Positions 6,801-32,514 of a stretch of DNA of 41,236 nt are shown here, piece after piece. Under the pieces are notes generated by a model. It ran no database searches. It was not told where the DNA came from and saw only the letters and a program-made list of their open reading frames with translations. Each line of letters opens with the position of its first letter. Position 1 is the stretch's first letter. Origin of the DNA: Cellvibrio sp. OA-2007. Its GTDB lineage: Bacteria; Pseudomonadota; Gammaproteobacteria; Pseudomonadales; Cellvibrionaceae. Position numbers and translations under genes: made by a program. The DNA lies in NCBI RefSeq assembly GCF_000953825.1, contig NZ_BBUL01000074.1, positions 1-41,236 of the forward strand. Direction: 5' to 3'.

Positions 6801-7869
6801 AGTAAAAGCATTTACAGAATCGCTTGAAAGCTCAAAAAAGGCGTTGGAAACAAGCGCCGTCCCAACTGCTGCCGATATTGAAGCTCGTAACATCCATTAC
6901 GGTAACGCACAAGCTGAAGCGGCTACCGCACAACTTGCGGAAAAATTAGCGGCTGAAGGTGCAAAGGAATTAGCTGTATCCCGAGGTATTGGGTTGGGCG
7001 CTTTGTATTCTGATTCTGCACAAGAACGTGCATCAGAAAACGAAACAGCTAAAAAGCTGGAAGTCTCAGCTTATCAAAAATTAATAGCTGTTAGCCCGGA
7101 AAGAGCTAGTGAATTGGTTGCTATTGAACGCAGTAAAATTGTCAATGATGGACAACTTTCTAATTCAATTTACTTTGAATCCTCAAAATATGACTTAGCT
7201 AAAGCTGCCGATATGGAATCGCCTGAAAGCTCAAAAATGGCAGGCGTGAAGGATTTGCAAAGTAGAGTGGAAATCATCACCCAGCAGGAGGTGATTAAAC
7301 CCGAAGCAATAAAAGAATGGGCTAAAGTCGATGCTGAGCAATTCAAGCGCATCCAAGACCCAAGCGAGAAGGAGTTTGCGGCCATTCTAATTGTTGAAAA
7401 CATGCGCAATAAAATTTATCAGGAGACATTGCAGGCAAATGAAAAAGACCTATTAAAAACAGTAGAAGCTCTCAATAAAGAGAATGATCGCCGCGTTGAA
7501 GAAAAAGAACAGCGTAAAGCCGATACTAGCTTTGCTGTCGAGCAACCTAATCCAATCCAGAGAGTTATCGATCAAGCCGCAGTAATCGAAATGAACATGC
7601 GTCATGAAAAATTGCAATCCAAGTCTATTCCTGGTAGCGAAGTTGCTGAAACAGATTTGAAAGCGTTTACGCAAGTTAAGTCGCAAACAGAGAAAAATAC
7701 GATGGCAATTGCCATCGATAAAATGATGCTGGCCGACTCCGATTACAAAGTGCACGTTGCCCTAAATGCACCTGATGACCTTTACGTCACTATTGGTGCG
7801 GCTCATGCGGAGCAAGACACGGTTGCAGCCCAGCGCAACTCACAGCAAGACAAAGATATACAAATGTAA
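3802..7869 (+). CDS. Large relaxase with LPD7-like domain
   Basis: A TTG at 3802, six bases after AAGGAGG, gives MIIRYGGGNAGIKEYLEGG and a 1355-aa protein; a further TTG at 3784 lies upstream of that ribosome site and is unlikely. The N-terminal 145 residues hold relaxase motifs: Tyr5 and Tyr15 as candidate catalytic tyrosines, RYLHITLSF (His61), YAEIHWPKIK (Glu101, His103), and YPHVHVVIPKRNLLTGG (His124, His126) for metal binding. At about 725-815 a region with FVNHPDRLEL and RFGSPLEIKGTKEF resembles large polyvalent protein domain 7 (LPD7). The rest is helical and charged, with no helicase motifs visible. It would nick and lead transferred DNA at oriT. The MOB family is uncertain; MOBP-like is my best guess. 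Confidence 0.85.
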   Translation: MIIRYGGGNAGIKEYLEGGRKMDRHFARDEMDTRIPIEGDLAVTQAVYDSIEDKGQDRYLHITLSFNEPDVTPESIAGVFQQYKNQLMTAYKDDEFNIYAEIHWPKIKEAYNHASDTMEARYPHVHVVIPKRNLLTGGMLNPVGMHEQSVKYLDAIQEKLNRDNGLSSPRDNPRVGNNHYESALAKYKEKEFKSKNGEVKQEIFKQLQERDIRTWDAFNTMLSEYGEVKIRNAATSNPYAAVKMPGDTKFTNLKGNIFNKAYIENRTLVLDPITDAQVSNRIETWQQIQSREIKFISNASAKVKAHYKSLSLPERREYLTLKENQYEQKNRQPTFDNGKKGLPSLPEGNYKPSPFEYARGVEAEGARNLYELRASSVDYFGEAPNARDRLFLQGHENDDLQHLYEERSPGLRRDLYAGGGSARISTALTDDPASSVIGARLEAENAKSNSASSLKKYAEIRKKLDPQSLLAYAQVKYGIDPANHKISKAKDGSPRISAGKYNYNVSDFLTKHIGLKWEEAAETLDNLYEKQVLGLGSKPKSKVAHIDDWRKFRNDVFPSHIKTYDQLKNEIKTTSKTSLKTINNEYFAQRKAITSDDSLTRSQRHYFRSVAILEKLQKIEVLRDEINTKNRYKDQVKYPYSSLFYNFVKTEEDFNMKILENWKKAYQPKAEQLGSPNSIGSGKPFTPENMPSGAEAAKRARLVAQLNEQERDKKEIKLKIGDLRPQPLASGAVAFTHREHGKQVFVNHPDRLELNRVTEPDEVAVSLTYAIERFGSPLEIKGTKEFQQQVIEVAAERDMDITFTDEKLNTALAAKREELGMKPLQSNSISVAEMELDKSLPLDKAIDKALLDSRVKELTEINRAPVDQTDAATRSQLVMDVLERHDEVNSGFMDSAKIVEIAQQDVAAYKHLEGKPEQQKVALAMYGLMQSKDLGAAYSTAIKENGPSELMLTIDAARIIQSKPELSIVPDQKPENQNLNATVKSLVDTSPVEEPTKDKEVKAFTESLESSKKALETSAVPTAADIEARNIHYGNAQAEAATAQLAEKLAAEGAKELAVSRGIGLGALYSDSAQERASENETAKKLEVSAYQKLIAVSPERASELVAIERSKIVNDGQLSNSIYFESSKYDLAKAADMESPESSKMAGVKDLQSRVEIITQQEVIKPEAIKEWAKVDAEQFKRIQDPSEKEFAAILIVENMRNKIYQETLQANEKDLLKTVEALNKENDRRVEEKEQRKADTSFAVEQPNPIQRVIDQAAVIEMNMRHEKLQSKSIPGSEVAETDLKAFTQVKSQTEKNTMAIAIDKMMLADSDYKVHVALNAPDDLYVTIGAAHAEQDTVAAQRNSQQDKDIQM

Positions 7870-7914
7870 CTAATGCGATAATTATTTAAACCTAGACACA
7901 TGAGGAAAGTGAAA

Positions 7915-8247
7915 ATGAAAAAACTTTTAATGGCTTTGGCAGTATGTGCATCATTGGTAGGTTGTAACAGTGATGATAAGGGCGCGTCTTTTGTTGGTGT
8001 TTGGAAAAATAACGGCAAGTCGGCGCAGACTATGACTATCTCTAAAGTGGACGGAGGTTATCGTGTACAAGCTAAATTCGATGATCCCCAGTGGAGTGCG
8101 ATGGATGTAGAAATGAAACTGAAGGCGGAATCAGATCAGTATTTGGTAACGGAGGACGGGCAAAAGCGGATTTTAGAACTTGGTAGCGAAGGCGAATTAA
8201 AAAGTTATTTATATCGCGAGCCAAAAACCTTTGCTAAGGCCAATTAA
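7915..8247 (+). CDS. Small predicted lipoprotein
   Basis: The 110-aa product starts MKKLLMALAVCASLVGC, a lipoprotein signal with lipobox LVGC (Cys17), so it is probably membrane-anchored in the envelope. The mature part (FVGVWKNNGKSAQTMTISKV and onward) is strand-rich, like small lipocalin-type folds. The ATG at 7915 is chosen over 7900 because GAGGA lies about eight bases before it. It follows the relaxase by 45 bases in the same direction. Function unknown. Confidence 0.75.
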   Translation: MKKLLMALAVCASLVGCNSDDKGASFVGVWKNNGKSAQTMTISKVDGGYRVQAKFDDPQWSAMDVEMKLKAESDQYLVTEDGQKRILELGSEGELKSYLYREPKTFAKAN

Positions 8248-8302
8248 TATCAACACACAGCTTCCAAACCTACCAGCCATCCTACTGTAAGAGGTTAGTA
8301 AA

Positions 8303-8617
8303 ATGAATTTAAGGTTCTCTTTGTCATTGGCTTTACTTGGTATATGTATCAACGCAACCGCGCAAATTCCCGGAGCGTATGAAATTCCCGGAATGGACAA
8401 ACAGTGGACTTGTAAAAAGCGTATTAGCGGATATGTGGCTGGACTGGAAACGGCATTGGCCGCTGATCCAACTAATACGGCAGCTAAAACCGAACTGGAC
8501 AGAATTAATAACCTATCGGTCAATCTTGGTGCTTGTGACAAATTAGCGCAGATTCCGGCGCTCGCACAATCCGATCTGGCGGTGGAGCATGCTGCGGCGC
8601 AGTCAACGGAGCAATGA
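8303..8617 (+). CDS. Small exported protein of unknown function
   Basis: The 104-aa product has a signal peptide (MNLRFSLSLALLGICINATA, cleavage before QIPG). Two cysteines in the mature part (WTCKK and LGACDK) could form a disulphide bond. AGAGG lies about nine bases before the start. It is the last gene of the mob operon, followed by a KorB-like palindrome and a terminator. I do not recognise the family; a periplasmic helper for conjugation is only suggested by position. Confidence 0.7.
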   Translation: MNLRFSLSLALLGICINATAQIPGAYEIPGMDKQWTCKKRISGYVAGLETALAADPTNTAAKTELDRINNLSVNLGACDKLAQIPALAQSDLAVEHAAAQSTEQ

Positions 8618-8644
8618 GGTAACAAATTAGAGCTAACTAATACA

Positions 8645-8662
8645 TTTTCGCGGACGAGAAAA
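8645..8662. promoter_or_regulatory. KorB/ParB-like palindrome, copy 1 (one mismatch)
   Basis: TTTTCGCG, GA, CGAGAAAA. This differs from the perfect 8-2-8 palindrome at 34652-34669 at one arm base and in the central pair orientation. It lies between the last gene of the mob operon and its terminator. Confidence 0.5.
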
Positions 8663-8690
8663 TAAGCGTAGTTATCTTAAAAACATTAGA

Positions 8691-8722
8691 AAAAGCCGGA
8701 TTACTTAATCCGGTTTTTTTTT
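8691..8722 (+). terminator. Rho-independent terminator of the mob operon
   Basis: A perfect stem CCGGATTA (8696-8703), loop CT, TAATCCGG (8706-8713) is followed by nine T. It carries A residues on the left, so weak activity on the other strand is possible. Confidence 0.9.
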
Positions 8723-8834
8723 GCCAAAAATTCCCACTCCTTAGATGCAGAAACACAAAGGGTAAAGGTCTTTAGACGAAAATAGAAAATCGAACAATCA
8801 AAAGTTGATTATCGAATACACAAGGAATAGTATC

Positions 8835-8868
8835 TTGGATATTCAATATTTAAATATTGAATATCCAA
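8835..8868. promoter_or_regulatory. Perfect 34-bp palindrome
   Basis: The left half TTGGATATTCAATATTT is followed directly by its exact reverse complement, with no loop. It lies 23 bases upstream of the first gene of the heme sensor operon. It is too AT-rich and lacks a following T-run to be a normal terminator. A dimeric repressor site or a cruciform is more likely. Confidence 0.85.
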
Positions 8869-8891
8869 AAACACACATTCATGGAGACCGT

Positions 8892-9437
8892 ATGGACGTT
8901 TTAAACGCATTTGTAAGCCGGTTAGCAAACCCGCGACGGACATTATCGCAACTGCTGCACCTCCCTCTAAAACCCGCAAACCCACTTGCAATCGGGCGCG
9001 AAGTAATTTTGTCCTATGACAATTTTTTATCTAAAGCATGCGCCGCCGCTGATCTTCCAGAAGTACAACGCCTGCTAGCCGAACTACGTACTCACTTGGT
9101 TAAACATAACTCGAATGTGAGCATGTTGCTCGTTAACGGTTTCGTTGAGCAGGGCTGGCACAAGGAGGCGGCAGAGTTAAAAACTCTGTTCCTGGAGCAC
9201 AACGCGAAATATCGAGCCGCTCGCGATTTAATTAATGCTCTTATCCTCAACCCGAACAATATCGACCTTGCAACGCCTGACGACACGACTCTAGTAGATC
9301 GTTTTGCCACGTTAACAGATGGCCACAACACCTATCTTTTCGGTTCGCTGCTCAATTTGCGAATCAACATTTCTTACATCGAAGAGACTTGGGGAAAGAT
9401 GGCGAAATACGAACAAAAATTGTTTGGGGGTTTGTGA
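8892..9437 (+). CDS. Unknown helical protein, first gene of heme sensor operon
   Basis: The 181-aa product is soluble and mostly helical, with no signal peptide, no membrane segment and no motif I recognise. ATG at 8892 has GGAGA five bases upstream; the frame is open from 8805, but that would run through the 34-bp palindrome. It ends TGATG, sharing a base with the start of the heme sensor, so the two are translationally coupled and probably work together. A cytoplasmic partner of the sensor is inference. Confidence 0.65.
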   Translation: MDVLNAFVSRLANPRRTLSQLLHLPLKPANPLAIGREVILSYDNFLSKACAAADLPEVQRLLAELRTHLVKHNSNVSMLLVNGFVEQGWHKEAAELKTLFLEHNAKYRAARDLINALILNPNNIDLATPDDTTLVDRFATLTDGHNTYLFGSLLNLRINISYIEETWGKMAKYEQKLFGGL

Positions 9438-10414
9438 TGACATTTAAAAGCACATCGATGCAGCTGGCGAAGATTTTCACCAACCGCTCACTGATAACCC
9501 AGCTGACGACAGTATTTATTTTGTTGATGCTTTTTTGGTTCGCTGGCGCATACAAATTTATGAATAACCTTTTTAATTTTCAGCTTATTACTCAGGCTGA
9601 AACGACAGTTAACAATGCCGAAGCTTTGGGTGATCACGTAAGCCAACACGGTCGTTTCTGGGTTAAGTCAGGCGCTGACTACGGTGGCAACTGGATTGAC
9701 AAGATAGCCTCTCCAGATGGTCAATTTTTTTATTCGAAAAATCCGGCTATGGTTCAGCGTGAATTTTCAGACCAAATTTACGCGAACGGGTTTCCGGCCA
9801 GGTTTCGATTGACTGCACTCGATGTAATGAACCCTAACAACACGCCCAACGATTTCGAGCGCAAGGCGCTGGAAGAGATAAAAGCGTCGTTGAGCCAAAA
9901 CCCTAAGCACCAATACACAAATAGTAAATTTGAATATGTAAAGCCAATTTATTATGTAGCGTCCTGCCTTGCGTGTCATGGTGATGTTAAAAGTGCCCCC
10001 GCTTCTGTTCGCCAGCAGTATGGCGAAACGAACGGATATGGCTATAAAGTTGGTGATCTTGCCGGTGCTGTTTCTGTGAGTATTGAGGTCGATAAATCCA
10101 AGCTGATTGGTGATGTTGTTGATTCAAACATCATAATTTTTATTGTGGTGCCAACATTTTTATTTTTTGCTTTTGTGTTTCGCCTGACCAAGTACATATC
10201 CAAGGTTTCCACGCAAATCAGTTCATATCAGCGCGGGCAACCCATCGGAATCAATACCCACACAATCGATAAAAATTCATCCAATGAATTGCATGGGCTG
10301 ATCCAGTCAATCGCTGCCGTGATGGAGCTGATGGAAGGCACATACAAACAGGTTTTAATGCTTACTGATCGCCTTAAATCTGCCGACAAAAAGGAGCAAG
10401 GCAATGCAAAATGA
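9437..10414 (+). CDS. Membrane-anchored c-type heme sensor (Tll0287/DUF3365-like)
   Basis: The 325-aa product has membrane segments at about 19-40 and 230-250, enclosing a periplasmic domain. That domain ends in CLACHG (Cys177, Cys180, His181), the c-type heme binding motif, in the setting typical of Tll0287-like/DUF3365 heme PAS domains (KPIYYVASCLACHGD then YGYKVGDLAGAVSVSI). After the second membrane segment about 75 residues remain. They look like a HAMP-type linker helix pair and carry no kinase, cyclase or methyl-accepting region. Domains of this type are thought to sense redox state or gases. It would need a partner to pass on a signal; the coupled genes on either side are candidates. 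The heme would need the host's cytochrome c maturation system. Confidence 0.8.
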   Translation: MTFKSTSMQLAKIFTNRSLITQLTTVFILLMLFWFAGAYKFMNNLFNFQLITQAETTVNNAEALGDHVSQHGRFWVKSGADYGGNWIDKIASPDGQFFYSKNPAMVQREFSDQIYANGFPARFRLTALDVMNPNNTPNDFERKALEEIKASLSQNPKHQYTNSKFEYVKPIYYVASCLACHGDVKSAPASVRQQYGETNGYGYKVGDLAGAVSVSIEVDKSKLIGDVVDSNIIIFIVVPTFLFFAFVFRLTKYISKVSTQISSYQRGQPIGINTHTIDKNSSNELHGLIQSIAAVMELMEGTYKQVLMLTDRLKSADKKEQGNAK

Positions 10415-10607
10415 TAAACCCTTTATGAATATCCCACTGGCTATCAATGTATCTGTGATTGTAGCCAACGTCCTTTTTGCTTTGTTGTATCCAGAGTGGT
10501 GGATTGTGGGTGTACTTGGCGCCCTGTTTTTTTTGGTTCGTTTGATCAAATCTGGCCGCAAAAAGCACCCTATCCCGAAGCTGGCAGACAGCTCGGTAAA
10601 AGAGTGA
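10404..10607 (+). CDS. Small membrane protein, third gene of heme sensor operon
   Basis: The 67-aa product has two hydrophobic stretches, about residues 10-26 and 29-46, and a basic tail (KSGRKKHPIPK). Its start overlaps the heme sensor's end by 11 bases and has AAGGAG upstream. Possibly it holds the sensor complex together; the family is not recognised. Confidence 0.6.
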   Translation: MQNDKPFMNIPLAINVSVIVANVLFALLYPEWWIVGVLGALFFLVRLIKSGRKKHPIPKLADSSVKE

Positions 10608-10693
10608 CTAGTCATTGATATTACAATATCGGACATTCGCAGATTCAATATTGTCGATTTGTTATATAAATCCCTATCAGATCACCCGCCTAC

Positions 10694-11011
10694 ATGCTAA
10701 AAATGCGAACTTTAGTTTTTGGGCGGGATTTTTTAGACATGCCAATTATGTATGACAGAGAATTGAAACTGCTGGGCGCTACAGGTTCCATCGTCGGCGC
10801 CAAGGCGATTAAAGCCTCTGAGGAGGACGACAAGGGGCGACTGACGTTCGAGCTTCACTTGTTAATTAAAGGCAGTACCGAGTGGTCTAAACTTGTTACA
10901 AGCCACAATAAAACCCGCCTTTTTCCAAACTTAAACTTCCTATACTCGCTGGTTATGGATAGCTGCCCGTCAATTGATGCAGTCCAAGTAGTGATTAGCA
11001 GAGACAGTTAA
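10694..11011 (+). CDS. Unknown 105-aa protein
   Basis: A soluble protein with alternating strands and helices and no recognised motif. The start is uncertain: ATG at 10694 or 10703, neither with a clear ribosome site. Upstream is an inverted repeat GATATT-AC-AATATC (10617-10630), similar in sequence to parts of the 34-bp palindrome at 8835. A clear terminator follows the gene, so it is a single-gene unit. Confidence 0.5.
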   Translation: MLKMRTLVFGRDFLDMPIMYDRELKLLGATGSIVGAKAIKASEEDDKGRLTFELHLLIKGSTEWSKLVTSHNKTRLFPNLNFLYSLVMDSCPSIDAVQVVISRDS

Positions 11012-11036
11012 CACGGGTTAATTCAACTGCATCCAC

Positions 11037-11068
11037 CAAAAAGCCGGATTGAAAAATCCGGCTTTTTT
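11037..11068 (+). terminator. Rho-independent terminator
   Basis: The stem AAGCCGGATT (11041-11050), loop GAAA, AATCCGGCTT (11055-11064) continues into a T-run. Much of the stem sequence is shared with the terminator at 8691-8722. Confidence 0.9.
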
Positions 11069-11132
11069 AGTCTACACCCTCACCCCGCTGCTGCTTTCTG
11101 CCAAAGCCAAGCTTTTTATGCCAACATATACC

Positions 11133-11148
11133 ATGTATATTTATACAG
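11133..11148. promoter_or_regulatory. LexA-like box
   Basis: ATGTATATTTATACAG matches the CTGT-N8-ACAG consensus of gammaproteobacterial LexA boxes except for the first base, with the usual AT-alternating centre. It lies 24 bases before the next start, so SOS control of that gene is plausible. Confidence 0.45.
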
Positions 11149-11172
11149 TATAAACCTTGGGAGGGTAAAATC

Positions 11173-11592
11173 ATGCCAGCAATTAGGTATAGACCCAATA
11201 ACGTATGTGCAGCTGTTCTTTGTGAGATTCCAACTGGCCACGTTTATTTAAAGAAGCGCGATATCCAAGGGCAACCCGCAGCCTACCTTAGTGCCAAATG
11301 GCTAGGCTTCATTTGCCTTACAGGTTTTCGGAAGTTCTACGGTGGGCGGAAATGCAAACTCATAGCGCGATCCATTTCCAATGGAAATGGGATGTGCGGC
11401 GAATGGCTGGATATTGGGGAACATGACTACGTAGTAGGGTTGGCGGTACAGCTGGATGATGAAACCCTTGGCGCGTATGCAGTGGTTGGCGCTGACGGTT
11501 GGCCTGTCGTTCGCTCGGATAAAGGGCCTCGGTTGACTGTTGTGGTTCCAGACTGGACACCTAAAACTCTGAAATTCTCTAAGGCGTCCTAA
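11173..11592 (+). CDS. Unknown 139-aa protein, possibly SOS-controlled
   Basis: A soluble, strand-rich product with no recognised domain. The N-terminus (MPAIRYRPNNVCAAVLCEIP) lacks a signal peptide, and four cysteines are spread through the first 85 residues. GGGAGG lies about ten bases before the ATG, and a LexA-like box lies upstream. It is followed directly by the palindrome island. A role in DNA repair or plasmid defence is suggested only by the LexA-like box. Confidence 0.6.
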   Translation: MPAIRYRPNNVCAAVLCEIPTGHVYLKKRDIQGQPAAYLSAKWLGFICLTGFRKFYGGRKCKLIARSISNGNGMCGEWLDIGEHDYVVGLAVQLDDETLGAYAVVGADGWPVVRSDKGPRLTVVVPDWTPKTLKFSKAS

Positions 11593-11602
11593 AACTATTG
11601 TT

Positions 11603-11753
11603 GGTACCATTTTCACTTGCTGCAGGGCTTAACCTGGTTTGATCCGGGCGCGGTTTTGGTACCAAAACGGTACCGGCCAAAATGGTACCAAAACACGCGC
11701 GATCGCCGGCGAGCTCCAGCTGCGGCCGCGAGTAATTTGGTACCAAATTACTC
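11603..11753. repeat. Palindrome island with GGTACC repeats and back-to-back restriction-type sites
   Basis: Five GGTACC sites occur, at 11603, 11658, 11669, 11684 and 11739. Three sit in longer perfect palindromes: 11653-11668 (16 bp), 11668-11675 (8 bp) and 11730-11753 (24 bp, half site GAGTAATTTGGT). Between the last two sites are packed GCGATCGC (11699), GCCGGC (11705), GAGCTC (11711), CAGCTG (11717) and GCGGCCGC (11722), nearly without spacers. No gene can be supported here. Confidence 0.85.
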
Positions 11754-13417: not shown

Positions 13418-13550
13418 TTCTCAAAACTCATGAAAACGCTTGGATTTGAGAAGTGAATTTTGAGAGACGTTTATGAGAAGGTAATCGGGGGAGAACAAGG
13501 ATATTTTTTTAAGCGGCAAATTATTCTCATAAACGGTCGTTTATGAGAAT
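13418..13550. promoter_or_regulatory. res: Candidate res site of the resolvase
   Basis: A near-perfect palindrome of 13-bp arms (ATTCTCATAAACG, centre GT) lies at 13523-13550. Further half sites TTCTCA at 13418 and TTGAGA/ATGAGAA at 13447, 13459 and 13472 lie nearer the gene. The multi-subsite pattern next to a serine recombinase is that of a res site. Confidence 0.7.
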
Positions 13551-26895: not shown

Positions 26896-27546
26896 TTGGT
26901 TAACTTACTTATTGCAGACGACCATCCATTTTATATGCAAGGTCTAACGCTCTCTGTTTCAGACGCAGACATAAACGTGTTAGAGCATATATCCGACGTG
27001 CATTCGATTATCGAGGCATATAAACGATTGAAGCCTGATGTTTTTCTGTGCGATATAAAATTTGGACAGGAGCAAACCAGCGGGTTAGATGTTTTAGAAA
27101 AACTCCTGACGATTGACCCAAAAGCAAAGGTTATTTTGCTGTCGCAGTACGACCAGGACATGATGATCAAGCAGTCTTATGCCGCAGGAGCGAAAGCATT
27201 CTTATCGAAATCGATTGCGCGAGAAGACCTTATTAACGCAATACAAACGGTTGCTAAAGGCGAGCTTTATTTCACTCCCGAAAACGCTCTTATCCTGGCG
27301 CGGTTGACATACGATAAGGCACCAGACGAGCGACCATTAGAGGAAATTTTGAACGAGAAGGAAATAGAAGTGATGCGATTACTAACTAATGGCTCACGCG
27401 AAAAGGACGCCGCCGCCGAGCTGGATGTAACAGTGCGCACAATTGCAAAACTCAAAGCAAGCATCAAAGAAAAACTAAATGTTGACAGTGATTCATCCCT
27501 AATCAAATTAGCGCTAAAACACGGCTTAATAAGCATGGATGATTGA
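26896..27546 (+). CDS. NarL/FixJ-type response regulator
   Basis: The 216-aa product starts at TTG 26896 with AGAGG six bases upstream. The receiver domain (1-122) has acidic Asp8-Asp9, phospho-acceptor Asp53 (LCDIKF) and Lys105. The LuxR-type helix-turn-helix at about 152-213 reads LNEKEIEVMRLLTNGSREKD and TVRTIAKLKASIKEKL. It precedes its likely kinase by 30 bases and would act as a DNA-binding output. Confidence 0.93.
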   Translation: MVNLLIADDHPFYMQGLTLSVSDADINVLEHISDVHSIIEAYKRLKPDVFLCDIKFGQEQTSGLDVLEKLLTIDPKAKVILLSQYDQDMMIKQSYAAGAKAFLSKSIAREDLINAIQTVAKGELYFTPENALILARLTYDKAPDERPLEEILNEKEIEVMRLLTNGSREKDAAAELDVTVRTIAKLKASIKEKLNVDSDSSLIKLALKHGLISMDD

Positions 27547-27576
27547 TTATTAATAACGGGCGGGAGTTTCCATAAG

Positions 27577-29535
27577 GTGTGTGCATTCATAAAAAATGTT
27601 TGTTTATTATTGCTGCTATACATAACAACCATAACGCAATTTGCTAAAGCTGATTTACCTGTGGTTGATTTATCAGCACAGACTCTAGGGCAAGAAGAGT
27701 TATTAGAAATTCCAAACTCTTGGCGCTTTTACTGGCAACAATACCTGTTTTTAGGAGATTCGTTTGCTGGAGGTGAGCCGATAGGAGCCACTTTGCCTTG
27801 GACAACAATACCGAACAAGGAAAGCGGCCATCCTGCACATGGTTTTGGAACTTACGCATTAATACTAAAGCTCCCCAAGCGCACTGAACCCAACCTAGCT
27901 CTAAAGATGCGCCGCGTTAAAACAGCTTACGCGTTATACATTGACGAAGTACTAGTAGGCCACACCGGAAACCTCGCCAATTACCCCCGACCTTTAACAC
28001 CACCCATCAATAAAAGCGGCATCGTGAATATTCAGGTTCCTATAGAAAAGTCTGAAATCACAATCCTAATCCATGTATCCAGCATGAAATATTATCGCGG
28101 CGGACTTGATCAGCCGCCCCAGCTTTCTTATGTCGATACGGCGAACGCATCTAAAATGCGCGACATATTGTGGCCAGCGTTCATCGCAGGTGCCTTGCTA
28201 TTTATGGGTTTTTATCACTTGGCCCTTTGGATCAAGCGAAAAACAAGCGTCACATCGCTACTTTTTTCGGTGTTTTCCGTTGCGGTAGGTACGCGTGTAT
28301 TTTTCACATACAAACTAGCCTATTTGATGTTTCCGAACTTAACAGAGGACACGATGTTATGGTGCGAAACCGTGCTGGCCTACACCGCTCTGCCCTTCTT
28401 GCACCTGTTTATCTCGTCGTCATTCCCCTTAGATGCCAACAAGTACATCACACGCCTCTCATGGGTAACATGGGTCGCAATGATGATTGTATCGTTCGGA
28501 ACGAGCCTCTACACAATGAGCCGAGCCTTACCGGTATTTGAAATCTATTTCATCGTGATTTTGTTTCACATGCTTTACATGGGCTTTGTAGCAATCCGCA
28601 GGCAGCGCGAAGGTGCAGTGATATTTACCATCGGTTTTATTATCGCGATATTTGCAGGTATTCATGATGTGCTTTTTTACAATGGAACGATACCAGGTTT
28701 AGGTAGAGCGATTTTTCCCTTTGGTGTATTGATCTTCGTATATGCTCAATTCTTGCTGCATTCAATGCGATTCTCTCGCGCGTACAGAGAGCTTGAAATA
28801 CTGACTAACACCCTTGAATTGCAGGTTCAGGAAAGAACAAAAGAACTTTCGGCCGCGCATCAGGAGAGTAAAAAAGCGCATGAAGAAACCAAACATTTGA
28901 GCAATGCAATTACCAACTTATTGGAGGATGAGCGCAAATCTATCGCTCGGGAGTTGCATGACGACTTTGGCCAAAGCCTACGAGCTGCCGGTCATTTTGC
29001 GGAGGCTATATCTCGGAGCCTCAATAAGATTGAGCAGCCAACGGATGAACTGAAGAAAAGCATCGCAAACGCGGATCAAATTGCCAGCGTTCTAATTGAT
29101 ATGTACCATAAAAACCGTGATTTGCTACGAAGATTGCGGCCTGAAATTATCGATACATTAGGGTTGGAGTCGGCTATAGAAGAGTTGCTCGCTAATTATC
29201 GGCGAAATGATTTTAAAATCGATTTCAAGTGTGATGCGAACGTATCCAGTTTGGGTAACAAAGAAAAAATAACGATCTATCGAATTTTGCAGGAAGCAAT
29301 CACAAATATTTTGAAATACGCAGACACTAAGGCCTTCACTGTTTTATTGACGGAAACCAACGAGCAAATTGTTTTCGCAGTCGCCGATAACGGAAAAGGT
29401 TTTGATGTAACAACTGCTAGAGGTGTAGGTTTAATATCGATGCGAGAGCGCATGGCAGATATTGGAGGCAGTATCGAAGTACTAAGCGCACCATCGGCGG
29501 GTACCAAGATAATTGCTAAATTCCCAAAGAATTAA
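27577..29535 (+). CDS. DISM-type sensor histidine kinase
   Basis: The 652-aa product starts at GTG 27577. Order: signal peptide (1-25), extracellular jelly-roll-like DISM domain (about 30-190, typically a carbohydrate or small-ligand sensor), seven hydrophobic segments (about 197-395), coiled coil (about 402-448), HisKA_3 with RELHDDFGQ and His461. The ATP-binding domain follows, with EAITNILKYA at 573-582, DNGKGF at 604-609 and GVGLISMRER at 616-625. The kinase type pairs with NarL-like regulators such as the one encoded just before. Ligand unknown. Confidence 0.93.
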   Translation: MCAFIKNVCLLLLLYITTITQFAKADLPVVDLSAQTLGQEELLEIPNSWRFYWQQYLFLGDSFAGGEPIGATLPWTTIPNKESGHPAHGFGTYALILKLPKRTEPNLALKMRRVKTAYALYIDEVLVGHTGNLANYPRPLTPPINKSGIVNIQVPIEKSEITILIHVSSMKYYRGGLDQPPQLSYVDTANASKMRDILWPAFIAGALLFMGFYHLALWIKRKTSVTSLLFSVFSVAVGTRVFFTYKLAYLMFPNLTEDTMLWCETVLAYTALPFLHLFISSSFPLDANKYITRLSWVTWVAMMIVSFGTSLYTMSRALPVFEIYFIVILFHMLYMGFVAIRRQREGAVIFTIGFIIAIFAGIHDVLFYNGTIPGLGRAIFPFGVLIFVYAQFLLHSMRFSRAYRELEILTNTLELQVQERTKELSAAHQESKKAHEETKHLSNAITNLLEDERKSIARELHDDFGQSLRAAGHFAEAISRSLNKIEQPTDELKKSIANADQIASVLIDMYHKNRDLLRRLRPEIIDTLGLESAIEELLANYRRNDFKIDFKCDANVSSLGNKEKITIYRILQEAITNILKYADTKAFTVLLTETNEQIVFAVADNGKGFDVTTARGVGLISMRERMADIGGSIEVLSAPSAGTKIIAKFPKN

Positions 29536-29560
29536 CTATAGATAACGACTGGATAAAATC

Positions 29561-30004
29561 ATGACTGACCATACAAGCGCAATATTAAAAAAGCACGAAC
29601 AGGAAATGGAAGTTAGGGATTATGAATGTGATATGGCAGATGGAGTAAACAATTCTGTGTATTACAACTATTTTGAACACGCTCGACATTCAATGCTGAA
29701 AGCAGGAGGAATCGATTTTGCTGAACTCGCAAGGCAACGCATTGGATTAATTGTTGCTCGGGCTGAAATCGACTTTAAGCGGTCTTTGGTGAGTGGTGAT
29801 AAATTCAAAATAACAACCGTTGTTAGGCGAATTAGCAAAATCAGGTTCGAATTTTCACAGGAGATATTTAAGCTCCCGGATCTAACACTCATCGCGAGTG
29901 CAAAAGTAATAGGTTTACCTATTGACCCTTCTGGTAAACCTAAATTGACTCCAGACCTGGAGGCATTGATATTGCCCATGTTGTCAGAAGTAGAAACCGC
30001 ATAA
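29561..30004 (+). CDS. Hotdog-fold acyl-CoA thioesterase (YbgC/FadM-like)
   Basis: The 147-aa product has the 4HBT signature near its start: YECDMADGVNNSVYYNYFEH then ARHSMLKAGG, the DxxGVNNxxYxxYxExAR pattern of YbgC/FadM thioesterases. It lies 25 bases after the kinase on the same strand and ends before a terminator. It hydrolyses acyl-CoA thioesters; substrate unknown. Its place in a two-component operon is unusual. Confidence 0.85.
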   Translation: MTDHTSAILKKHEQEMEVRDYECDMADGVNNSVYYNYFEHARHSMLKAGGIDFAELARQRIGLIVARAEIDFKRSLVSGDKFKITTVVRRISKIRFEFSQEIFKLPDLTLIASAKVIGLPIDPSGKPKLTPDLEALILPMLSEVETA

Positions 30005-30005
30005 C

Positions 30006-30055
30006 AAAAAAAGGCGGTGGACAAAACAGTAAATTAACTGTTGTTCCCCACCGCC
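30006..30055 (-). terminator. Terminator between convergent genes
   Basis: The stem GGCGGTGG (30013-30020) pairs with CCACCGCC (30048-30055), with a further partial stem inside. On the minus strand seven U (30006-30012) follow, ending the receptor transcript. It may also slow plus-strand transcription. Confidence 0.85.
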
Positions 30056-30102
30056 CTGCACTCACGCGCCCTTGCCTTTCGGCTTTTCCAGTAAATTAAA
30101 TA

Positions 30103-32514
30103 TTAAAACTGATATTCAGCACCAAACGTTATCGAACGCGGGCTTTTGGCGAACGTGTAAAACGTGTTTGTGCCAAATTGCGATCCAGACAATGGGGCAT
30201 TTGATTGGTACGTTTTTACATACTCATTCGTTAAATTGTTACCGGTAATCCTTAGCACTAACGCGTCTAATCGATAGATGATATTCGCGTTGATCATGTA
30301 GTAACTATCCTGATATCCATTCGGATCAAGACTTTCGTGTACGTTATGAGTGCCCACATATTCGGCATTGATCGCATATTGCATCTGACCACCAAATAAC
30401 GCGTGCGAATACTCAGACCCAACATTGTACATTTCTTCAGGGGCGAATCCTGGACGTAGCCCGGAGTAATCGCAAAGATCAGAAACGCCATCGCCGTTAA
30501 TGTCGGTACCATCCGGGGTTTGACCTTGGTAGCAATTGCCGTTTTTAAAATCCTTATACTCAATATCGACGTAACCAGCGCTATAAAACACTATCCATTG
30601 AGGTGTAATGAGCGCGCGGCCGTCAAACTCAAATCCTGTGGATTCGGTCTTTTTCGCATTGCCAACATTAAAGCCTAACGCCCCGTCAAATTGGCTAACT
30701 TGTAATTCGTCGTAGGTTGTATGAAAAACCGTGATTCCATTTTCAAACTGCCCACTAGCGGATTCTGACCGCAACCCCAGCTCGTAAGTTAAGGCGTTCT
30801 CTTCATCAAATTCAAAACTATTTGCAGCGTTGGAGCGCGGATCAAACCCACCAGATTTGTGACCGGATTTTACCGAGAAGTAAACAGAGTTTAATTCATC
30901 CATTTGGTGGTTAAGTGTTGCAGATGGTGAAAAGCTATTTTCATTCCTGGATTGATCCAAGTCATGCCCTACAGAAAAACCTTTCGCTAAATTAATCGGC
31001 TTTGCACCGCAATCATTCGGAAGACCTTTTGACTGTATGGTGTCAGCTTTGACCCCATACAGGTATGCACACGCGAGAGCAGGATTGGAAATTATTTGGT
31101 CGTTTTCGTTAATTATGTTTAACGATCTAGTCGCATCTTTACTGTCAAAAGTGTAGCGGCCATTTAAAACGAGTGTGGTGGCTTTGGTGAGGTTAAATCC
31201 ATACTCACCGTAAACTGAAAAGACGCTTTCGTCTTGCTCAAAAGCTCGCTTCGCGCCAGAACCTGGCAACGGATTGCCTATTGCTTTTAACACACTATCA
31301 GACGGCACGAAAAAGCGGTCATTGAAGTGTAATTCAGCTTGTTGAGCGTAAATACCAGCCATCCATTTACTACCGGCGCCATCCGCATTTTTAATAAAAC
31401 TATCGATAGAATATTGGTGATACTGTTCGTCGAGTTCAAGCGTCAAAATATTTGCAGGCGTGTAATCAGCATCAACTGATTCATCATACCCATAATTCAC
31501 TGCCGCAATCGTGTTATGCCATTCAACGCCACCAAAATCATATACCCCATGCAGCGAATAATTATTGATATGGTTATCGCTAAATTCCGGCGCGTTAGTT
31601 TGACGTTGCCAATCAGCATTAGCATCAAAGCTAGGTTGCTTTAGCAGCACCGTTAATATGTTGTTGTAGGTCGATGGAATCGCATTCAGAACAGCGTTGC
31701 CGGGTTTTCCCGCAATTACATCGAGCGTTCGCGGGCTGGCAATGTCCATCGTAATTTCATACGGGCGCCCTTCAACTTCAAATGACGTACTTTCGATTTT
31801 TGCGTCGAGAGTAAATTTTTCGCTTGCTTGCCAATTTAGTTTTAATCGAGCAGATTTTTCTTCACGGCTGCCAGATTGACTTTTCGTTGTATTTTCAAAA
31901 TACCCATCGTCTGTTAATCCGTACAAGGATAGGCGTGCATTCAGTGAATCAGTCAGCGCACCGTTAACGACAAAATCAGTTTGCTTCTGATTTAATTCAT
32001 CGTTGTAAGCGGCCGATATTCTCGAATAGGTTTCGTTAGTTGCATTAGCTGTATTGACGATAACCGCACCGGCAATCGAATCTTTCCCAAACAACGCATT
32101 TTGCGAGCCTCTAAGGATCTCGACGTTTTGGAGGTCGTACAGTGGCGCCCTGAATAGTTGCGCGCGGCCGTAATACACGCCATCAGAGAATTGCGAAACT
32201 GACTGCTCAAAGCCTTGGCTGTTGCCAGATCCAATTCCGCGTATGCGAACTTGGGTAGACAAACCTGATTCAGTAAAATGGATATTGTTGGTTAAGCCGA
32301 CAAGATCCTCGATTCGATCTGCGCCCATGCCGGTAAGTGTCTTACCATCAAGCGATGTAATCGAGGTTGTTACCTTGTTAATATTTTCTGTTCGCTTAGT
32401 TGCAGTAACTAATATTTCCTCTAATTTTTCTTGCGCAAATGCAGGAGAAATAATTGAGAGCATAAAAGCATAAAGTGCGGTTTGACCAATTTTTATATTT
32501 GAAACTTTGTTCAT
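30103..32514 (-). CDS. TonB-dependent outer membrane receptor
   Basis: The 803-aa product has a signal peptide ending SPAFA-QEKLEE, a TonB-box-like EEILVTATKR, a plug domain with VEILRGSQNALFGKDSIAGA, and a C-terminal barrel ending in aromatic GAEYQF. In the barrel a DINGDGVSD loop with nearby cysteines looks like a calcium-binding extracellular loop. Substrate unknown. It faces the two-component/thioesterase genes, which may control it. Confidence 0.93.
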   Translation of the reverse strand: MNKVSNIKIGQTALYAFMLSIISPAFAQEKLEEILVTATKRTENINKVTTSITSLDGKTLTGMGADRIEDLVGLTNNIHFTESGLSTQVRIRGIGSGNSQGFEQSVSQFSDGVYYGRAQLFRAPLYDLQNVEILRGSQNALFGKDSIAGAVIVNTANATNETYSRISAAYNDELNQKQTDFVVNGALTDSLNARLSLYGLTDDGYFENTTKSQSGSREEKSARLKLNWQASEKFTLDAKIESTSFEVEGRPYEITMDIASPRTLDVIAGKPGNAVLNAIPSTYNNILTVLLKQPSFDANADWQRQTNAPEFSDNHINNYSLHGVYDFGGVEWHNTIAAVNYGYDESVDADYTPANILTLELDEQYHQYSIDSFIKNADGAGSKWMAGIYAQQAELHFNDRFFVPSDSVLKAIGNPLPGSGAKRAFEQDESVFSVYGEYGFNLTKATTLVLNGRYTFDSKDATRSLNIINENDQIISNPALACAYLYGVKADTIQSKGLPNDCGAKPINLAKGFSVGHDLDQSRNENSFSPSATLNHQMDELNSVYFSVKSGHKSGGFDPRSNAANSFEFDEENALTYELGLRSESASGQFENGITVFHTTYDELQVSQFDGALGFNVGNAKKTESTGFEFDGRALITPQWIVFYSAGYVDIEYKDFKNGNCYQGQTPDGTDINGDGVSDLCDYSGLRPGFAPEEMYNVGSEYSHALFGGQMQYAINAEYVGTHNVHESLDPNGYQDSYYMINANIIYRLDALVLRITGNNLTNEYVKTYQSNAPLSGSQFGTNTFYTFAKSPRSITFGAEYQF

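Follow-up and report, generated by a model that had tools for sequence, protein, structure and literature searches.

The window analysed here, a stretch of 41,236 bases, is the entire contig C24 of a 4.6-Mb Cellvibrio genome. It contains three closely spaced genes, designated P1, P2, and P3, that lie downstream of a long palindrome (Table 1). The P1 stop and P2 start share one base at 9437 (TGATG), which gives a 1-nt overlap, and the P3 start at 10404 falls 11 nt inside the 3' end of P2. Inverted repeats flank the trio near 8696-8713, where the scan calls a minus-strand terminator, and at 11038-11067. A terminator-like site also lies inside P3 (10508-10524); the scan returned two such sites in total, against 3.9 expected by chance. 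A first-pass annotation of this sequence had proposed three coupled genes encoding a soluble helical protein, a two-segment membrane protein with a c-type heme motif in a Tll0287-like domain, and a 67-aa membrane protein. The overlaps and a gene order that is the same in other carriers bear out the coupling, and all three protein assignments agree with the analyses that follow.

Table 1. Features of the P1-P2-P3 locus (positions in the window)
Feature	Coordinates	Strand	Description
Weak sigma-70-like promoter	8805..8833	+	Identified by eye: TTGATT - 17 nt - TAGTAT; 8 of 12 consensus bases
Palindrome	8835..8868		Perfect, loopless, 34 bp, 17-bp arms; candidate operator or 5' leader hairpin
P1	8892..9437	+	ATG at 8892, stop ends at 9437; 181 aa; soluble, predicted four-helix bundle; candidate partner of P2
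P2	9437..10414	+	325 aa; helix, Tll0287-like (sCache_heme) domain with CLACH, helix, putative HAMP-derived tail; no enzyme
CLACH heme-c attachment motif	9965..9979	+	P2 residues 177-181
P3	10404..10607	+	67 aa; small membrane protein with a hydrophobic stretch at about residues 10-51

Proteins and upstream region of the locus

P2 matches the Pfam Tll0287-like family PF11845 with an E-value of 1.6e-28 (100.4 bits against a curated cut-off of 24.1), and a three-row P2 profile finds Tll0287 of Thermosynechococcus (PDB 5b82) at 3.4e-12. The domain lies between two hydropathy peaks (residues 19-41 and 232-250). The protein has two cysteines, both within CLACH, and thus no third cysteine that could act as an axial ligand; C177, C180, and H181 are invariant in nine of nine aligned homologs. 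CcmE, the one heme-c maturation protein tested for, is encoded in the same genome. Together, these features suggest that P2 carries covalent heme c and senses NO or redox state. About 75 residues follow the second hydrophobic stretch and contain no enzyme, as the first-pass annotation had noted in calling P2 a sensor without an output enzyme. Its description of this tail as a HAMP-like stub holds in part. The tail can be aligned with that of a homolog, L042, right through the HAMP region, but Pfam HAMP is unreported for P2 of the window up to E 1 (and for the P2 of a second carrier, L004, up to 0.1). The model is reported in two homologs, L042 (1.9e-6) and L047 (2.5e-10), and we regard the P2 tail as probably HAMP-derived. 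An AlphaFold2 model of P2 built from three rows was too poor for use (mean pLDDT 46.4).

P1 has no hydropathy peak. Its structure model (mean pLDDT 76) places helices at residues 31-51, 55-87, 90-119, and 151-178, from which a four-helix bundle is predicted. No Pfam or NCBIfam family matched P1 at cut-off, DUF7674 appearing only at E 0.074, and a Foldseek search of the model against the PDB gave no match at or below 0.001, the best (E 0.23) being a designed protein. A hemerythrin assignment was rejected on the same threshold, the DcrH hemerythrin domain appearing at 0.30 and 0.41. Residues N73, S74, N75, E102, H103, and N104 are nearly all invariant across the three known P1 sequences. NSN (73-75) and EHN (102-104) are equally distant from the turn that joins helices 2 and 3 and may therefore be opposite one another, a placement reasoned from residue positions. 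For P3, the best family match was DUF4342, whose E-value of 0.0019 corresponds to 18.7 bits, below the cut-off of 25; neither P1 nor P3 reached any family cut-off in the Pfam, NCBIfam, or PADLOC scans. PADLOC gave no match to P1-P3 of the window, so that an anti-phage defence system was rejected; on four proteins of the relatives, it gave a single marginal match (P1 of L004, 0.029). A two-component system was likewise rejected, as Pfam and NCBIfam found no histidine kinase or receiver domain in P1-P3.

The palindrome (TTGGATATTCAATATTTAAATATTGAATATCCAA) lies upstream of P1, with 23 nt between its end and the start codon. Among 200 second-order Markov copies of the window, loopless arms reached at most 12, compared with 17 observed; the perfect palindrome of the first-pass annotation stands. 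Its 30-bp core is a single site in its own genome even when three mismatches are allowed, and viral contigs hold no exact match to the core. Leader RNA that includes the palindrome folds as a hairpin (-16.1 kcal/mol, z -2.62; matched in stability by 4 of 200 shuffles). The start point of the weak promoter in Table 1 would fall inside the palindrome. A promoter scan listed no plus-strand promoter upstream of P1; the weak one is absent from its list because it has 8 of 12 consensus bases and the scan requires nine. Across 7800-11300 the scan returned four promoter-like sites, against 7.8 expected. In the relatives described below, P1 lies only a few bases after a topoisomerase gene, which leaves no room for a palindrome. 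Because the palindrome is unique and missing in these relatives, it is best considered an operator candidate of this plasmid copy and not a fixed part of the system, a candidacy based on its perfection and position alone.

A role for the palindrome as a shared plasmid operator was rejected, since its half-site has seven matches in the window against 6.7 expected, the level of chance. Two sequences in the AT-rich interval 10615-10661, between P3 and the next gene (10694), resemble palindrome half-sites (CAATATCG and CAATATTG), to be read against these chance-level matches across the window. Two further strong palindromes, at 11730-11753 (12-bp arms, no loop) and at 13523-13550 (13-bp arms, 2-nt loop, about 140 bp upstream of a resolvase gene), are unlike the 34-bp one in sequence. 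The plasmid that holds these three palindromes also encodes KorA- and KorB-like proteins.

Mobile setting and conservation of the trio

The window encodes a Rep3 initiator, ParA, KorB-like, KorA-like, and ParB-like proteins, KfrA, and TrbM, together with a MobC-like protein, VirB-type secretion proteins, and an LPD7 protein that weakly matches a relaxase. Judged by these replication, partition, Mob, and VirB-type genes, the window is a conjugative plasmid, in agreement with the plasmid-borne location first proposed. No overlap of 11 to 300 bases was found between the contig ends, and circularity is thus not shown. In a VirB4 comparison the two closest plasmids came from Pseudomonas hydrolytica and P. 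mendocina (69% identity each). The P. hydrolytica plasmid, the one of the two that was examined, has matches to the window's relaxase (59%) and to one lipoprotein gene (43%). P1, P2, and P3 are all absent from it, even though relaxase and secretion genes are present. Because so closely related a plasmid does without the trio, the trio looks like accessory cargo.

Two side observations concern these plasmids. NZ_CP100554.1 (L070, L071) is typed as non-mobilizable in PLSDB, yet its annotation includes MobC, an LPD7 protein, and VirB genes; the LPD7 protein matches the window relaxase at 59%. The window itself holds a separate cargo block at 26896-32514, with genes for a LuxR-type response regulator, a 7TMR-DISM histidine kinase, a thioesterase-like protein, and a TonB-dependent receptor; the plasmid thus has another sensor system besides the trio.

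Of 21 Cellvibrio genomes, the present one included, three carry P1. The first-pass annotation had asked whether homologs would show the three genes to be unrelated elsewhere; the trio proved intact in both other P1 carriers (L003 and L004), so that the P1-P2-P3 order is the same in three of three. This order persists despite identities to the window proteins of 28-35% (P1), 38-39% (P2), and 38-46% (P3). The junctions are also close: P1 and P2 overlap by 1 nt and P2 and P3 are separated by 2 nt in L003, and the gaps in L004 are 11 and 3 nt. In a P1 search that covered 390 genomes from the order and 274 from the class, all matches beyond the genus were marginal and partial; these fell in four places (E 6e-4 to 8e-3, in parts of 84- to 770-aa frames) and were not counted. 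Scans of species-genome contigs, which need short exact peptide patterns and can therefore miss distant relatives, yielded no relative with the single P1 protein and only the two known ones with a three-row P1 profile. The plasmid collection contained no match to P1 or to the DNA of 8600-11100, and other Tll0287 proteins gave partial matches there (4 and 7 records, each below 60% identity and 80% coverage). Viral contigs contained no relative of P2.

All three trios are on contigs with conjugation genes, one on the plasmid and two with genes of integrative conjugative elements (ICEs). Both relatives' contigs encode a member of ICE ATPase family TIGR03744, separated from the trio by about 48 and 68 kb. 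Upstream of the trio, both ICEs carry ParA-like, ParB-like, and topoisomerase frames similar to those of the window, together with an Ssb-like frame, which was identified by BLAST in one ICE and recognised by eye in the second. A TraT gene follows the trio in one ICE (Pfam), and in the other a TraT-looking frame recognised by eye comes after two other frames; in both, the trio thus sits between the topoisomerase and TraT genes, within a few kb. One carrier genome (G010) is rated 7% contaminated. Its contigs C95 and C105, read whole, contain no match to topoisomerase, traT, or the trio. In three of three cases, then, the three genes form a real unit carried on mobile DNA.

Partner genes beside enzyme-less relatives

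We asked what lies beside related sensors in the order, using the P2 profile at E 1e-12, which matched 23 of 390 genomes and, with its own genome set aside, left 22 others. The profile was that of the trio's own P2, and enzyme-fused members are consequently under-sampled. A Ser/Thr kinase gene directly adjoins the sensor gene in 16 of the 22 (L025-L040; one kinase was called by Pfam and the rest by similarity to it), and a 91-92-aa protein does so in two (L042, L043). No partner was recognised in the remaining four (L022-L024, L041), so that 18 of 22 have a partner gene next door. Within the genus, PF11845 occurs at nine loci in 8 of 21 genomes: three trios, four loci with a protein of about 90 aa, one with a kinase, and one in which the kinase is fused (L065), the last two read by eye.

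The proteins of about 90 aa (L042, L043, L061-L064) share a VGPIG-type core and gave no Pfam match at E 0.1 beyond one at chance level. A profile of these six matches 7 of 17 kinases weakly, with full-sequence E-values of 4.7e-5 to 0.017 and single-domain values of at least 0.021. The weak similarity lies in the C-terminal part of the neighbouring kinases, and one partner domain may therefore recur in two forms, within a kinase and alone. P1 was rejected as a further form of this partner, as the same profile finds no match in it. P1-P3 look like a third partner set, carried by mobile elements, beside the kinase and ~90-aa types.

A tree of 30 rows (the window, L003, L004, the 22 order matches, and five genus loci, the fused L065 excluded) places the P2 proteins of the trios in one clade with support of 100/98. 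This clade is nested in a 12-row clade (100/100) that also contains the ~90-aa group and three partnerless rows, and the other side of the tree holds the kinase group and L041. Several long end branches make finer placement unsure. All 30 frames, P2 plus 29 further members of the family (two from the other trios), end after the HAMP region as judged by length and ending; four were scanned with Pfam, namely those of the window, L004, L042 (the sensor of L020), and L047 (the sensor of L025). The ~90-aa loci resemble the trio in pairing an enzyme-less receptor, 28-31% identical to P2 and in the same 12-row clade, with an adjoining small partner gene; they differ in that the partner belongs to another family, P1 and P3 are lacking, and the neighbours look chromosomal by eye. 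The kinase loci (L025-L040, L060) share the enzyme-less Tll0287-HAMP receptor with a directly adjoining partner in trans, but have a Ser/Thr kinase output and fall on the other side of the tree.

Several neighbourhoods were also read by eye. The sensor-kinase pair of L060 (2789-8937) lies downstream of apparent type VI secretion genes, among them one for what we take to be a ClpV-like AAA protein. A diverged partner-type protein of about 97 aa adjoins an apparent hybrid kinase gene in L086 (6233-6526; contig C5 of the same genome as the window) and in L087 (6977-7270); the neighbourhood of L064 is similar, with a Tll0287 gene in addition. The plasmid P2 is the only PF11845 match in its own genome, which looks to have lost a chromosomal Tll0287 sensor.

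The first-pass annotation considered such an output-less sensor, borne on a plasmid and signalling through its neighbours, unusual. That view is not supported for the output-less layout: besides the 29 family members that end past the HAMP region, a HAMP-only, enzyme-less sCache_heme protein that binds NO tightly has already been purified, according to a 2026 preprint (PMC12889525). This Pseudomonas azotoformans protein (Target 2, WP_033902098) is described there as a dimer with two helices and a HAMP domain; it has no axial Cys, and its release of NO is slow. Release is fast in a relative that stands alone and has Cys/His ligation (PMC12889525). Target 2 resembles P2 in its two membrane helices, sCache_heme domain with CXXCH, enzyme-less cytoplasmic end, and absence of an axial Cys; it differs in having a HAMP domain by the preprint's account where P2 has a putative HAMP-derived tail, and the two are likened by description, not sequence. 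Of the features that the preprint gives for its Cluster 2 (sensory sCache_heme proteins with HAMP), P2 thus has the missing axial Cys but not a HAMP that Pfam recognises up to E 1. Tll0287 of Thermosynechococcus shares with P2 its domain family and heme-c motif; unlike P2, it is stand-alone and Cys/His ligated (PMC12889525) and lacks the two-helix receptor layout. The main text of the preprint contains the word 'operon' 0 times, and its abstract, introduction, results, and discussion name no signalling partner for the HAMP-only protein (PMC12889525). Literature within our coverage, which excludes most subscription papers, describes no such partner genes for DUF3365, Tll0287, or sCache_heme, and a search on heme or NO sensing and conjugation found nothing on point.

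A putative split receptor and its alternatives

The reading toward which we lean, if only somewhat, is that the trio constitutes a split receptor carried as cargo of conjugative elements, in which P2 signals in trans via P1 as its main output and P3 as an accessory. P2 would form a dimer in the inner membrane and expose its heme-c Cache domain to the periplasm. NO binding there, or a change in heme redox state, would shift the HAMP-derived tail together with the second of the membrane helices. Because it has no enzyme of its own, P2 would hand the signal on to other proteins translated from the shared message. P1, a presumably cytoplasmic four-helix protein, would contact P2 as its main output partner, thereby filling the place held elsewhere by the kinase or the ~90-aa protein; P3 would serve as a small accessory subunit in the membrane. 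The trio would be accessory cargo of Cellvibrio conjugative elements; the plasmid copy has an upstream region to itself, in which the palindrome is the candidate operator, and the ICE copies follow the topoisomerase gene. Signalling through neighbours had been suggested at the outset, and the comparison with the relatives' partner genes is the one line of evidence that speaks for it. The split receptor is further favoured by the trio order in three of three P1 carriers despite 28-46% protein identity, by the tightness of the gene junctions, by the single clade of the three P2 proteins (100/98), by CcmE in the plasmid's own genome, and by the absence of a third Cys from P2, which matches the NO-binding protein described in the preprint (PMC12889525). 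Against it stand the failure of Pfam to see HAMP in P2 of the window and L004, the lack of sequence relationship between P1 and the ~90-aa partner, the four partnerless relatives among 22, the fused L065, the under-sampling of enzyme-fused members, the terminator-like site within P3, and the finding of P1 in only three genomes, all of one genus and one of them rated as contaminated.

The unrecognised HAMP could also mean that the signalling parts of P2 have been lost. P2 would then resemble a membrane cytochrome and serve to move electrons or to buffer NO, with P1 and P3 as assembly or docking subunits and no signal passed on; the preprint assigns redox roles to stand-alone members of the family (PMC12889525). 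We consider such an electron-transfer module unlikely, since P2 retains both membrane helices as well as a tail that can be aligned to HAMP, lacks the third Cys of the redox-type member, and is accompanied by a soluble P1 that, if cytoplasmic, is ill-suited to periplasmic electron transfer.

The location of all three trios on contigs with conjugation genes, and of both ICE trios between topoisomerase and TraT genes within a few kb (TraT by Pfam in one case, by eye in the second), would suit a device, in the vein of the first-pass proposal, whereby respiration or NO tunes conjugation or surface exclusion. This argument is one of location alone, and the closely related plasmid that has relaxase and secretion genes without the trio, like a palindrome half-site that is not enriched in the window (7 versus 6.7), makes a link to transfer improbable. 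That P1, P2, and P3 are unrelated genes adjacent by chance is scarcely credible: P1 and P3 do fall below every family cut-off, but the same order and close junctions recur at low identity on different element types in three carriers, which largely refutes the idea.

The output-less sensor is itself not new; what the trio adds is a candidate partner family for which no relative was found outside it. The partner genes that adjoin 18 of the 22 enzyme-less relatives sampled offer a testable answer to how a HAMP-only protein signals. More tentatively, and with doubt outweighing confidence, the enzyme-less sCache_heme receptors of the order may be split NO receptors with exchangeable partners next door: a kinase with a ~90-aa-type domain, that domain alone, or P1-P3. 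The version on Cellvibrio conjugative elements, with its new four-helix output protein, might then let the element or its host answer periplasmic NO. With the trio, conjugative DNA carries what is likely a receptor for NO or redox state.
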